Below, piece by piece: positions 8,454 to 32,414 of a stretch of 64,000 bases of DNA. Under the pieces are notes generated by a model, which was not told the DNA's origin, made no database searches, and saw nothing but the letters and a program-made list of their open reading frames with translations. A program made the position numbers and the translations under genes. Origin of the DNA: Cyanobacteriota bacterium (GTDB lineage Bacteria; Cyanobacteriota; Cyanobacteriia; CACIAM-69d); NCBI GenBank assembly GCA_022402445.1, contig JAKRSF010000004.1, positions 125,858 to 189,857 of the forward strand, given 5' to 3'. Within the stretch, counting starts at the first letter, position 1, and the number at the start of each line of letters is the position of its first letter.

Positions 8454-8896
8454 TGAGAACGGAACTTCAGGTGCCGAGCCAGTTACAGTTTTTGACGGTC
8501 GTCGAGACGTGGTTGCTCGGGTCGCTGGCGATCGAGTTTGAGGAGCAGGTGGATTGGCCCCGGCAGGCGAATCGGCTGCGGCTGGTGCTGGCGGAGGCCT
8601 ATTCCAATGTGGTGCGCCATGCCCACCGCGATCGCCCCCAGGTGCCGGTGCTGATGCGGCTGGAGACGAAGGATTTGGATATGACGCTGGAGATTTGGGA
8701 TTGCGGGCGGGGGTTCGATCTGGCGACCTATCTGCCGCCGGTGCCGGAGGCGAAGCAGGAGAGTGGCTATGGCTGGCTGATCCTGAATCGCTTGATGGAT
8801 CGGGTGGAGTATCGGGTGCAGGCGGAGGGCGATCGCAATTGCCTGTCGCTGGTGGCGTCGATGCCGCCGAAACCCAAGGCGGAGGATGTGGCCTAG
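8453..8896 (+). CDS. RsbW/SpoIIAB-like anti-sigma regulatory kinase (HATPase_c)
   Basis: A 147-residue ATP-binding Ser kinase of the GHKL fold, the type that phosphorylates STAS-domain antagonists and may bind a sigma factor. The N box reads LAEAYSNVVRHAHR (about 47-60), the G1 box DCGRGFD (about 83-89) and the G2-like segment GYGWLILNRLMDRVEY. The ATG lies within TGATG, overlapping the phosphatase stop by one base, so the two opposing enzymes of a partner switch are made from one message. The open frame extends upstream inside the phosphatase gene, but that part is only a shifted reading of it. The actual substrate is unknown. Confidence 0.88.
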   Translation: MRTELQVPSQLQFLTVVETWLLGSLAIEFEEQVDWPRQANRLRLVLAEAYSNVVRHAHRDRPQVPVLMRLETKDLDMTLEIWDCGRGFDLATYLPPVPEAKQESGYGWLILNRLMDRVEYRVQAEGDRNCLSLVASMPPKPKAEDVA

Positions 8897-8905
8897 GGCT
8901 GGGGG

Positions 8906-10819
8906 TTAGGAACCCACGTCGGCGAAGCGCCATTGTAGGCGATCTTTGTCCCAGCGCAGTTCATAGACGCTGGTGGTGGCGTTGGTGCGGCGGCCATTGC
9001 GCAGGCGGTAGGCGATGCGGGCGCGGACGAGGGCGGTGTCGCCGGTGACCGAGAGGACCCGGAGGTCTTCGATGTCCGTGCGTTCGACGCTGCTCCACCA
9101 GTCGGTGTAGCTGTCGTAGCTGTCGCGGGAGTGGTTGCGCTGGAAGTCGGGGGTTAGGAGGTTCCAGCCGGTTTCGTAGTCGCCGCGATCGACGATCGCG
9201 AAATAATCCCGCACCGCATCGGCGGGGTTGGGTAAATCATCGACGGGCTCTGGGCTCGGGCTCGGGTCGGGGGTAGGCGTTGGGCTCGGCGTTGGGCTCG
9301 GCGTTGGGCTCGGCGCGGGCAGGATGCTGCTGGCGGACAGGCGTTCCGGGTCGCGGCTCGGGTCGTTGCTGGCGTAGCTGCAATAGGCGGCGGGGACATC
9401 GCGGCCATAGGTGAGCAGGGCTTCGCGGCAGACGTTGAACCGGTCAAATTGGGCGGCGTAGACCTGGAAGTAGGGCTGGCCGGAGAGGTTGGCGTAGCCG
9501 GGAATCCAGAATTGGCCGGCCTGGTCATAGCCCTGCTGCCGCAGTTCGGCCACCCGGCGATCGGCGTTGGCGGCGTCCCCGTAGGCGGAGTCGGCCAGGA
9601 AATAAAATTCCGGCAGGTTCCGGGGGCTGGGGCTGGCAATGGGGCTCGGGCTCGGACTCGGCTCCGGCGATGGGCTGGGGCTGGGGCTGACGATGGGGCT
9701 GGAGCTGGGGTTGCTATTGCTCAGGACGCTGGTGACGCCGACGGCCACCCCCGCGATCGCCACGACGGTCGCCACCATGCCCCAGGGGAAATTGCCAGAC
9801 GATCGATCCTGGGGCGGGGCCGATCGCGGATCATAGTCATAGGCCGGGTGATGGGCCGGGTCATAGGGCGCAGGGGCATAGGCCGGAGCCGGACGACCGA
9901 TGGCCTCCGTGGGCAGGGCGGATGGGTGGGGCACCGGACGCGGGGGAGGCGTGACCGGCGCAGCGGAGGCCACCGTTGGCTTAGGCGTGTTTGTGCCCCC
10001 CTTGAGCACCGCCAGCATTTCATCGGCGCTGCTGAAGCGATCGCGCGGATGCATCCCCAGTGCCCCGGTCAGGGTCATCTCCAGTGGCGGGGGCAGCGGC
10101 GGCGCAGCGGCCATCCACAGCAATTCCCCCGTCTGCGGATCCGTGGGGATTTCCTCAGGGAACGTGCCCGTCAGGCCATAGAGCACCGTCAGGGCCAGGG
10201 AATAGAGATCGCTACTAAAGGTCGGTCGCCCCGCCGCCTGCTCCGCCGCCATGAATCCCGGCGTGCCGATCGCGATCGAACTAATGGGCGTCCCCCGCGC
10301 CGTCACCCGCGACCCCATGGTTTCCTTGACGGCCCCAAAGTCAATGGGCACGGGCCAATCATCCGGTGGCCGCAGGATCAGATTGTCGGGTTTGATATCT
10401 CGGTGGACGATGCCCCGCTGGTGGATCGCCGCGATCGTCGGTAGCAGCCGCTCCAACAGGGCGATCGCGGCCTCCGGAGCCAGTACCCCCGCCCGATTCA
10501 CCCGTTGCAGCAGCGTATCCCCCTCGATCCACTCCTGCACCAGAAAGAAGCGATCGCCCTGCTGGAAATAGGCATAGAGCCGGGGCACCGCCGGAATTTG
10601 ATCCCCCAACTGCTCCAGGACCACCGCCTCGCGCCCGAAGCGATCGCGCACCAAATCCACCGTCGCCGGATCCGTTTGCAATGGCGACAGTTCCTTAATC
10701 ACACAGCGGCGCGCCGACGGCATCTGCGTATCGCGGGCCAGATAGGTTTGCCCAAAGCCCCCCCGCCCCAAAGGCCCCTCGATGCGGTAGCGGTTATCAA
10801 ATAGGTCGCCTGGATTCAC
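8906..10819 (-). CDS. Membrane Ser/Thr protein kinase with extracytoplasmic C-terminal domain
   Basis: Eukaryote-like (Hanks-type) kinase of 637 residues. The kinase domain (1-275) has the Gly loop GRGGFGQTY, Lys42 in CVIKEL, the catalytic HRDIKPDN (139-146, Asp141) and DFG at 160-162. A Pro-rich linker leads to one membrane helix (about 344-366). A Ser/Pro linker, a SPOR-like segment (about 405-480), a second PSPTPSPT linker and a C-terminal domain (about 530-637) resembling the NTF2/IMS-like tails of cyanobacterial kinases follow. The layout suggests the outer part senses something in the periplasm while the kinase acts inside. It converges on the RsbW gene with a nine-base gap. Domain names after the membrane helix are from pattern memory. 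Confidence 0.9.
   Translation of the reverse strand: MNPGDLFDNRYRIEGPLGRGGFGQTYLARDTQMPSARRCVIKELSPLQTDPATVDLVRDRFGREAVVLEQLGDQIPAVPRLYAYFQQGDRFFLVQEWIEGDTLLQRVNRAGVLAPEAAIALLERLLPTIAAIHQRGIVHRDIKPDNLILRPPDDWPVPIDFGAVKETMGSRVTARGTPISSIAIGTPGFMAAEQAAGRPTFSSDLYSLALTVLYGLTGTFPEEIPTDPQTGELLWMAAAPPLPPPLEMTLTGALGMHPRDRFSSADEMLAVLKGGTNTPKPTVASAAPVTPPPRPVPHPSALPTEAIGRPAPAYAPAPYDPAHHPAYDYDPRSAPPQDRSSGNFPWGMVATVVAIAGVAVGVTSVLSNSNPSSSPIVSPSPSPSPEPSPSPSPIASPSPRNLPEFYFLADSAYGDAANADRRVAELRQQGYDQAGQFWIPGYANLSGQPYFQVYAAQFDRFNVCREALLTYGRDVPAAYCSYASNDPSRDPERLSASSILPAPSPTPSPTPSPTPTPDPSPSPEPVDDLPNPADAVRDYFAIVDRGDYETGWNLLTPDFQRNHSRDSYDSYTDWWSSVERTDIEDLRVLSVTGDTALVRARIAYRLRNGRRTNATTSVYELRWDKDRLQWRFADVGS
9276..9311 (-). 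repeat. Three tandem copies of a 12-bp unit in the kinase linker
   Basis: GGCGTTGGGCTC (plus strand) occurs three times head to tail at 9276, 9288 and 9300, all perfect. On the coding strand it encodes alternating Pro, Ser and Thr in the second extracytoplasmic linker. Being in frame, copy-number changes would only alter linker length. Confidence 0.85.
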
Positions 10820-29368: not shown

Positions 29369-31387
29369 CTAGACATTAGAACCGCTAGTGCGTTTCCCGA
29401 GCAGCCGTTCTCGCAGATGTTTGATGCGATCGCGATATTTCGCCGCCTCTTCAAATTCTAGATTTTTAGCCGCCGCCTTCATCTGCTCCTCAAGCTGTTC
29501 AATTAGGGTGGGGATTTCACCCAAATCCAAATCCATGGATCGCTCATAGGCCACCTCTAATTCCTGGGCGCTGAGGCGACGGGATAAATCTAAAAATTCT
29601 AGGATCGAGTTCCGCGACTCCCGCGCGATCGGCTGGGGCGTAATGCCATGCTCCTCATTGTAGGCCGCCTGTTTCTGGCGACGGCGCTCCGTTTCCTCGA
29701 TGGTTTTGATCATGCTGTCGGTCAAATTATCCCCATACAAAATTGCCTGACCGTTCACATGGCGCGCCGCCCGCCCCACGGTTTGGATTAGCGATCGCGC
29801 CGCCCGCAAAAATCCTTCCTTATCCGCATCGAGAATGGCCACTAAAGAAACCTCTGGCAAATCTAAGCCCTCACGCAACAGATTCACCCCAATCAACACA
29901 TCAAATTCCCCCTTCCGCAGGGCCTGCAAAATTTCAATGCGCTCAATGGAATTAATGTCCGAATGGAGATAGCGGACCCGAACGCCTCGCTCCTGGAAAT
30001 AGTCCGCCAAATCCTCCGCCATGCGTTTCGTCAAGGTGGTCACCAGGGTCCGTTCCTTGCGATCCACCCGCTGCACAATTTCCGCAAGCAAATCATCCAC
30101 CTGGCCCGCCGTCGGCCGCACGGAAATCTGCGGATCCAAAATGCCCGTGGGCCGCACAATCTGCTCAATCACCCGCGTTTCAGAAATCCCGAGCTCCCAA
30201 TCCCCCGGCGTGGCGGAAACGAAAACACATTGCCCCACCTTTTGCCAAAATTCTTCCGCCTTGAGGGGCCGGTTATCCGCCGCCGACGGCAAGCGAAATC
30301 CATGCTCAATCAACACCTGCTTGCGAGCGCGATCGCCGTTATACATGGCCCGAAGCTGGGGCACCGTCACATGGGACTCATCGATCGCCAGGAGCCAATC
30401 CTTCGGGAAATAGTCAATCAAACATTCCGGCGGCTCCCCAGCCTCTCGACCGGCCAGATAGCGGGAATAGTTTTCAACCCCATTGCAATAGCCCACCTGC
30501 TCCAGCATTTCCAGGTCGTAGCGGGTGCGCTGATTAATGCGCTGGGCTTCGACCAATTTGCCATCCGTTTCTAGGGCTTCCACGCGATCGCGTAACTCCC
30601 CCCGAATTCCCGCGATCGCATCCTGCAACCGATCCTCCGGCGTCACGAAATGTCGAGCGGGATATAAATTCACCGCCTCCAGATTTTCTAAAATTTCCCC
30701 CGTCATCGGCTCCACATAGCGAATCGCATCCACCTCATCGCCAAAAAACTCAATGCGAATAATGCGATCCTCATAGGCCGGCCCAATCTCTAACACATCC
30801 CCCTTCACGCGAAACTTACCGCGCCCCACTTCAATGTCGTTGCGCTCATATTGCACCGACGCCAAATCCCGCAGCACCTGCCGTTGATTAATCTCGCCCC
30901 CCACCCGAAAGGGAATCGCCGCCTTGAGGTATTCCGACGGAATCCCCAGACCATAAATGCAGCTAATGGACGCCACCACAATCACATCGCGCCGTTCAAA
31001 GAGCGATCGCGTGGCCGAGTGGCGCAGCATATCAATTTCGTCATTGATAGACGCGGTTTTTTCGATATAGGTATCCGTCGTCGGAATATAGGCTTCCGGC
31101 TGGTAATAGTCGTAATAGGAAATAAAATATTCAACCGCATTATTGGGGAAAAACTGCCGCAGTTCATTGCACAACTGCGCCGCCAAGGTTTTGTTATGGG
31201 CCAACACCAGCGTGGGCCGCTGCACCTGGGCGATCGCATTCGCCAGCGTAAAAGTCTTGCCCGTACCCGTCGCCCCCAGCAGGGTTTGGAACCGCGCCCC
31301 CCCTTGCAAATTTTCCACCAACTGCGCGATCGCCTGGGGCTGATCCCCCATGGGTTGATAGGGTGCATGAAGCTCAAAGGGACGCAT
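29369..31387 (-). CDS. uvrB: Excinuclease ABC subunit B
   Basis: DNA-loading and damage-verifying helicase-like subunit of nucleotide excision repair. The 672-residue protein has Walker [10 protein letters not shown], the [10 protein letters not shown] motif Ia, and the beta-hairpin region with [12 protein letters not shown]. It also has DESH (motif II), the helicase motif [11 protein letters not shown] and the C-terminal UVR motif ([27 protein letters not shown]) that binds UvrA/UvrC. All are intact. Other uvr genes are not in the window. Confidence 0.97.
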
Positions 31388-31588
31388 AATTAAAACGATG
31401 AACGTGAAAAAATAACGGCCAAAGTAATCCTAAAAACCAAACCCAAAGGGCAGATCAAACGGCCCGCTAAAGGGCGAACTCCACTGATCCATACCCCTGC
31501 GAGAACCCCCGACCCTTGATCCTAAGGCCCCGCACCCCACGGAAGCCAGCGCCGAGGCCCCCATCGCCCCGCCCGCCGCCCCACCGCG

Positions 31589-31651
31589 ATTGGGGCAACG
31601 CCCCCACCCATCGGGGCAACGCCCCCACCCATCAGGGCAAAGCCCTCACCC
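31589..31651. repeat. Three tandem 21-bp units (GGGGCAACGCCCC hairpin family)
   Basis: Units at 31589-31609, 31610-31630 and 31631-31651, each ATYRGGGCAAMGCCCYCACCC in consensus, followed by ATCGCCCCC. Each contains a GGGC/GCCC inverted repeat around CAA. The same unit occurs singly at 37495 and 38051. Confidence 0.85.
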
Positions 31652-31673
31652 ATCGCCCCCACTTCGCAAAGTA

Positions 31674-31688
31674 TTAAGGATTGCTTAT
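31674..31688. repeat. 15-base motif TTAAGGATTGCTTAT, copy 2
   Basis: Exact copy of the motif at 17102-17116, located in AT-rich DNA between divergent uvrB and the RP-repeat gene. Confidence 0.55.
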
Positions 31689-31934
31689 TTCATCCATGAA
31701 GTATCAATAATCTTTTTATCGTGTCGCGTAAAATATAACTGTATTAGTCGTGGCGAGACCGGAGCGCGCGTTGCCCTGGCGGTCCGAGCGTCCCCCGCCG
31801 CCCCATAATCAACCCCATACGCCGTCAGCGCGATCCCACCCCTTGATAGGATTCATACGGGGGATCGAGCGATCGCCATTGGAGCGACAGTCAGGCAGCG
31901 AGCGATTACCGTCCAACTTTGTATCGAGGGAATC

Positions 31935-32414
31935 ATGAGCAATCGGAACGTAACGGACCACAACGGTAAAACCGAACAGGAGGGTAGCCGCGACAGCCGC
32001 GACAGCCGCGACAATCGCCCCAGTGCCAGTGTCCCCGCGACCGCTGCCCCCGCCGCCGCCCGCGAAGAACGCAGCCTGCCGGTGGTGGCCCGCAAGCGCC
32101 CCCTGGCCCCGAGCTACGGCGTGCGTCCGGTGGGTCCGAGCGAACTGCATTTGGTGGAAGGCGGCCTCCCCGGCCACAGCAAGCGCCCGGTGGCCATCAG
32201 CGACCTGAAAATGTCCGGTACCGTGTCGTCCTATGGGGTGCGGCCCATCGGTGCCAACACCATGGAAGTGACTAACACGATCATCCTGTCCGGCAAGCGT
32301 CCCGTGAGCGCGAGCCCCCTGGCCCTGGCCCAGAGCGATTCCCTCCCCGGTAAGCGCCCGGTGGCCTCCAATGACCTGGGCGAAGAGTCCAACCTGATGG
32401 GCTACCTGGACTAA
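31935..32414 (+). CDS. Repeat protein with 19-residue KRPV/VRPI units, function unknown
   Basis: A 159-residue protein without membrane segments. The first 45 residues are polar and low in complexity (SRDSRDSRD from a 9-bp repeat, then Ala/Pro). From residue 53 an Arg-Pro pair recurs at 55, 64, 84, 103, 122 and 141, with spacings 9, 20, 19, 19 and 19. The unit is roughly G-[KV]-R-P-[VI]-[AGS]-x3-L followed by about nine variable residues and a Gly. The C-terminus ends NLMGYLD. I do not recognise the family and do not assign a function. The periodicity suggests a solenoid or a multivalent binding linker. The ATG lies about ten bases after GAGG, giving a plausible start. Confidence 0.75.
   Translation: MSNRNVTDHNGKTEQEGSRDSRDSRDNRPSASVPATAAPAAAREERSLPVVARKRPLAPSYGVRPVGPSELHLVEGGLPGHSKRPVAISDLKMSGTVSSYGVRPIGANTMEVTNTIILSGKRPVSASPLALAQSDSLPGKRPVASNDLGEESNLMGYLD
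31986..32012 (+). repeat. Three tandem copies of AGCCGCGAC
   Basis: A 9-bp unit repeated three times in frame, coding SRD SRD SRD in the N-terminal polar region of the RP-repeat protein. Confidence 0.85.

Follow-up and report, generated by a model that had tools for sequence, protein, structure and literature searches.

A family of cyanobacterial Arg-Pro repeat proteins with a conserved C-terminal end and a possible role as multivalent adaptors

Introduction

The window analysed here, a 64,000-nucleotide stretch of a cyanobacterial genome, contains a gene for a 159-residue protein in which Arg-Pro (RP) pairs recur at regular distances and which lies next to a divergent uvrB gene. What might such a protein do, and does its neighbour reveal anything about its job? 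An original prediction, made from the letters of the sequence, had read the repeats as either a multivalent binder or a solenoid. We find that the gene represents an annotation gap: the family is kept in most cyanobacterial families under purifying selection, with a rigid 19-residue period and a near-invariant C-terminus, and is absent from Pfam and NCBIfam. The reading that we favour, to which we would give a probability of roughly one half, is that of a largely disordered multivalent adaptor, confined to cyanobacteria, which combines linear-motif units with a C-terminal docking tail. The protein is conserved enough to matter, and the repeat motif and the tail are ready peptide baits; a partner caught with them in a laboratory strain would directly reveal the protein's job.

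Results

The gene (31935..32414, + strand, stop included) is supported by its translation, by relatives that share its start, its repeats and its end, and by the dN/dS values given below. Its start codon is further supported by a GAGGGA just 5′ of the ATG, a probable ribosome-binding site (31924..31934, + strand), and by relatives that begin with MSNRNVTD or MSSRNTTE. On the same strand, the product is divided into a variable N-terminal segment of low complexity and mixed charge (residues 1-53; 31935..32093), an array of RP units defined by translation and by the consensus of 61 loci (32097..32375), and a conserved C-terminal end (residues 148-159, LGEESNLMGYLD; 32376..32411) which is acidic at first and then finishes with LMGYLD at the free C-terminus. 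Translation bears out the pairs placed by the original prediction at residues 55, 64, 84, 103, 122 and 141 and the consecutive spacings of 20, 19, 19 and 19, but a further RP at residue 28 had been omitted and the distance from 55 to 64 is only 9. The proposed unit form, G-[KV]-R-P-[VI]-[AGS], holds at 64, 103, 122 and 141 but fails at 55 (ARKRPLA) and 84 (GHSKRPVA), and the most constant part of the protein, the C-terminal LMGYLD, had been missed. That the repetition exceeds chance was rightly supposed: among 20,000 shuffles of the residues, at least six RP pairs arose in 7 and at least two spacings of 18-20 in 3.

The 19-residue period of the window gene exists at the level of the protein, not of the DNA; the only tandem DNA arrays nearby are a 21-bp array in the intergenic region and a 9-bp array in the N-terminal codons. 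The former (unit CCCCACCCATCGGGGCAACGC, 3.6 copies, window 31579-31655) is a short tandemly repeated repetitive sequence, and the 18-bp core of CCCCACCCATCGGGGCAACGC is present in 37 copies in the genome with at most one mismatch, often in tandem (a reversed control gave 1). The region that separates the divergent uvrB and repeat genes (31388..31934, no strand assigned) yielded no match in Rfam and no consensus sigma-70 promoter, and HLR1, NtcA, CRP, Fur and Zur motifs were not enriched upstream.

Of 96 genomes in the window's class, 69 contain a relative, and a profile search scored 125 of 386 genomes of the phylum as positive, all of them in that class; the window protein itself matches the family profile with an E-value of 9.9e-34. 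A narrower profile recovered 174 relatives from a wider collection of contigs, in which a scan with a single protein found none. Eighty of the 174 were kept. All but one have cyanobacterial titles; the odd one (L100) is a metagenome bin that bears the label Gracilibacteria, probably wrongly: a cyanobacterial uvrB adjoins its repeat gene. All searches together place RP-repeat relatives in nearly 40 cyanobacterial families, and some families that were first scored as negative proved to have weak or shortened members. The gene was absent from nine re-tested genomes of a small-genome family (f2). Genomes that lack it while their photosystem I genes are intact include G306 (of f2), G136 and G234. 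Seven genomes that were searched have one or two loci each, with no use of the module as a tag on other proteins, and viral contigs and phage records contained no relative. Six copies are on plasmids of Nostoc, Calothrix and Aulosira, where they are annotated only as hypothetical protein and the neighbours read were uninformative. Synechocystis slr0442, and then sll1472, sll1475 and sll1476, were entertained as names for the gene, but these were guesses and were not confirmed. As the original prediction had it, no named domain accounts for the protein, and Pfam, NCBIfam and PDB hold no convincing relative: the window protein matched none of their families at E-values up to 10, and 62 relatives gave scattered weak matches only. 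Peptide strings of the family are also absent from the open papers searched. The family is real and old, and it is not described in these libraries and papers, although its general kind, that of multivalent motif proteins, is known.

Across 61 loci the core consensus is G-x-R-P-[IV]-x-x-S-x-[LF]-x-[VI]-x-x-[TS], with regular hydrophobic positions at +2, +7 and +9 within the unit. Of 239 distances from one RP to the next, 179 are exactly 19; spacers can be 16-20 long, and the number of repeats ranges from 2 to 11 (mostly 4-6). The C-terminus consists of a hydrophobic residue followed by Asp in 60 of the 61 loci (GYLD in 33 and GFLD in 15; usually LMG[YF]LD), the sole exception being L171, one of the decaying genes treated below, and 49 of the 61 proteins stop 18 residues past the R of the last RP. 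The window protein conforms to this pattern: it has at least three units of the form R-P-[IV]-x-x-[SN]-x-[LFM], spaced by about 19 residues, and its LMGYLD, which fits [LM]MG[YF][LI]D, follows the last RP by about 18 residues. Short proteins consisting of the tail only are found in families f17, f29 and f3, and repeat-only proteins in f5 and f29. Relatives across the phylum keep both the spacing and the RP pairs, on which the original prediction had made the functional status of the repeat depend. The alternation of KRPV and YGVRP units, which had been taken for design, is peculiar to the window lineage; other families use G-[NHI]-R-P-[IV] throughout, and we dropped the idea of alternating units because the family consensus contradicts it.

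Identity among moderately diverged relatives is 87% in the motif core, the positions of which were chosen from overlapping data, 63% in the spacers, about 51% in the N-terminus and 82% in the last six residues. The median pairwise dN/dS is 0.22 (133 non-independent pairs of relatives), which implies that the frame is under selection as a protein and indicates that this selection is purifying.

Neither the window protein nor a consensus-like relative was given a fold by AlphaFold2 (mean pLDDT 48.8 and 48.7, respectively), but the alignments were shallow (62 and 27 sequences) and a missing fold is not proof of disorder. Hydropathy and charge place the N-terminus on the disordered side and the repeat array slightly on the folded side. 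The latter result, together with the strict period and the regular hydrophobic positions, is what would be expected if the repeats folded as a solenoid or another beta-rich array, either alone or on oligomerisation. We nevertheless regard this as unlikely: neither model, built on these shallow alignments, contains the stacked secondary-structure elements of a solenoid, repeat number and spacer length vary, tail-only relatives exist, and cysteine is nearly absent from the family (9 in 10,087 residues). Of the two options in the original prediction the binder is the better reading, and the solenoid finds no regular structure in the models to support it. The units may instead be flexible docking motifs, which perhaps fold on binding.

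In the window, uvrB lies upstream of the repeat gene on the opposite strand (29369..31387, - strand; identified by its Pfam UvrB domains), and the same divergent layout, always in this orientation, recurs in 22 of 61 loci, which represent 13 of 36 families (a tally in which the window is listed separately from f1, the family to which it belongs). The next commonest neighbours are two unnamed genes downstream, the first of them lipoprotein-like, each found in 9 loci from 5 families. Two genomes that lack the repeat gene have uvrB next to the lipoprotein-like gene (L205) or next to the second unnamed gene (L204). The older arrangement thus appears to have been uvrB, repeat gene, lipoprotein gene and second gene, with later loss of the repeat gene. 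Representatives at one locus (L145) of an unnamed lipoprotein-like family (8755-9195) and of an unnamed 172-residue family (9273-9791), both cyanobacterial and recurrent downstream of the repeat gene and next to uvrB, have no match in Pfam.

A conserved divergent pair invites the idea that the protein acts with UvrB in nucleotide excision repair, as an accessory or a regulator. It would also suit the loss of both genes from G136, a member of family f32 assembled as a 99%-complete single contig, in which no uvrB match was found at an E-value of 1e-100; the loss is unusual, and G300, of the same genus, has the two genes side by side. In some Nostocales (for example L062, L092 and L145), LexA-like boxes close to the start of uvrB point the same way (RGTACNNNDGTWCB is exact in 7 of 56 regions, against 0.1 in shuffles), but the box is limited to these lineages and sits at uvrB. 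Furthermore, in 23 of the 36 families the repeat gene is not within 7 kb of uvrB, and two f2 genomes that were tested (G306 and G057) have uvrB and no repeat gene. In three genomes of one genus (G222, G333 and G253), PsaA/PsaB are missing or riddled with stops; from this loss and from genome size they are probably diatom endosymbionts. All three have an intact uvrB of 670 aa, whereas the adjacent repeat gene is interrupted by stops or frameshifts, or shows loss of RP pairs and of the tail; these genomes are related and do not represent three fully independent losses. A repeat gene that breaks beside an intact uvrB argues that UvrB can work without the protein. Since some genomes have uvrB but no intact repeat gene, the protein is probably not an accessory of UvrB, a role that we consider quite improbable. 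The same decay argues that selection on the protein can end when phototrophy ends, and its use seems tied to a phototrophic, free-living life. The absence of the gene from G136 and G234 despite intact photosystem I means, however, that it is dispensable in some phototrophs.

Another alternative is a scaffold tied to proteins of the Calvin cycle or the beta-carboxysome, a functional counterpart of CsoS2 in lineages that lack alpha-carboxysomes. CsoS2 is the scaffold of the alpha-carboxysome, in which linear-motif repeats are set in a flexible chain with a conserved C-terminal segment, and the RP-repeat protein, as we model it, would share short motif repeats, a flexible chain and such a segment. 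It is much shorter, however, its units are different, it has no match to CsoS2 in Pfam or NCBIfam, and carboxysome genes are absent from the recurrent neighbours of RP-repeat loci; the window offers uvrB and, further on, ribH (DMRL synthase) and psbZ (Ycf9). In favour of such a scaffold, the gene is missing from all nine re-tested genomes of f2, presumably a carrier of alpha-carboxysomes, whereas almost every other family has it; it decays where photosystem I genes are lost, and a phosphoribulokinase-like gene adjoins it in a few loci. The absence from f2 is a single evolutionary event, though, and G136 and G234 keep photosystem I without the repeat gene, and we consider this scaffold to be as improbable as the UvrB accessory. 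A multi-core precursor peptide from which units are cut out and modified would explain repeated cassettes with a fixed C-terminal end, but is highly improbable for a near-universal single gene with conserved rather than variable units and no maturation genes recurring beside it.

Discussion

In the multivalent adaptor that we favour, each 19-residue unit, G-x-R-P-[IV]-x-x-S-x-L-x-[VI]-x-x-[TS], would dock on one conserved partner, and four to six units in a row would give avidity and could hold several copies of the partner together. The acidic end, ...LMG[YF]LD-COOH, would provide another place to dock, at which the free carboxylate is probably part of what is recognised. We infer the binding itself, its avidity, the presence of two sites and the disordered state of the chain in vivo. 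Several observations speak for such an adaptor, namely the spacing of 19, the fixed tail, the higher identity of the core than of the spacers and N-terminus, the missing predicted fold, the separable modules and the dN/dS values, as do the one or two loci per genome, the lack of use as a tag and the decay beside an intact uvrB. A repeat number that varies from 2 to 11 is likewise as expected of a string of motifs. Against it stand the position of the array slightly on the folded side and the gene-less genomes with intact photosystem I. The way in which the gene decays points to a partner that works in a phototrophic or free-living existence and not in nucleotide excision repair. A bolder version, which we hold only tentatively and think somewhat doubtful, is that of a phylum-wide cyanobacterial hub inherited from an early ancestor, in which near-identical docking motifs and a docking tail would organise a central machine of phototrophy (for example Rubisco and the carboxysome, the antenna, or transcription).

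The tail resembles the C-terminal tip of bacterial SSB, which has an acidic run, hydrophobic residues and a fixed free C-terminus, and ends in -PF. The RP-repeat tail is similarly acidic and then hydrophobic, a resemblance that is suggestive of a docking tail; the protein differs from SSB in that it has no OB domain and ends in -[LI]D rather than -PF.

The N-termini of the family vary in length and charge, and most, including that of the window protein, are short and near neutral. Three members of family f11 (L017, L020 and L028) differ from these in that a Lys/Ala/Ser/Thr-rich N-terminus of about 300 residues, which resembles the histone H1-like, Lys/Ala-rich proteins of the AlgP type, is fused to the RP array.
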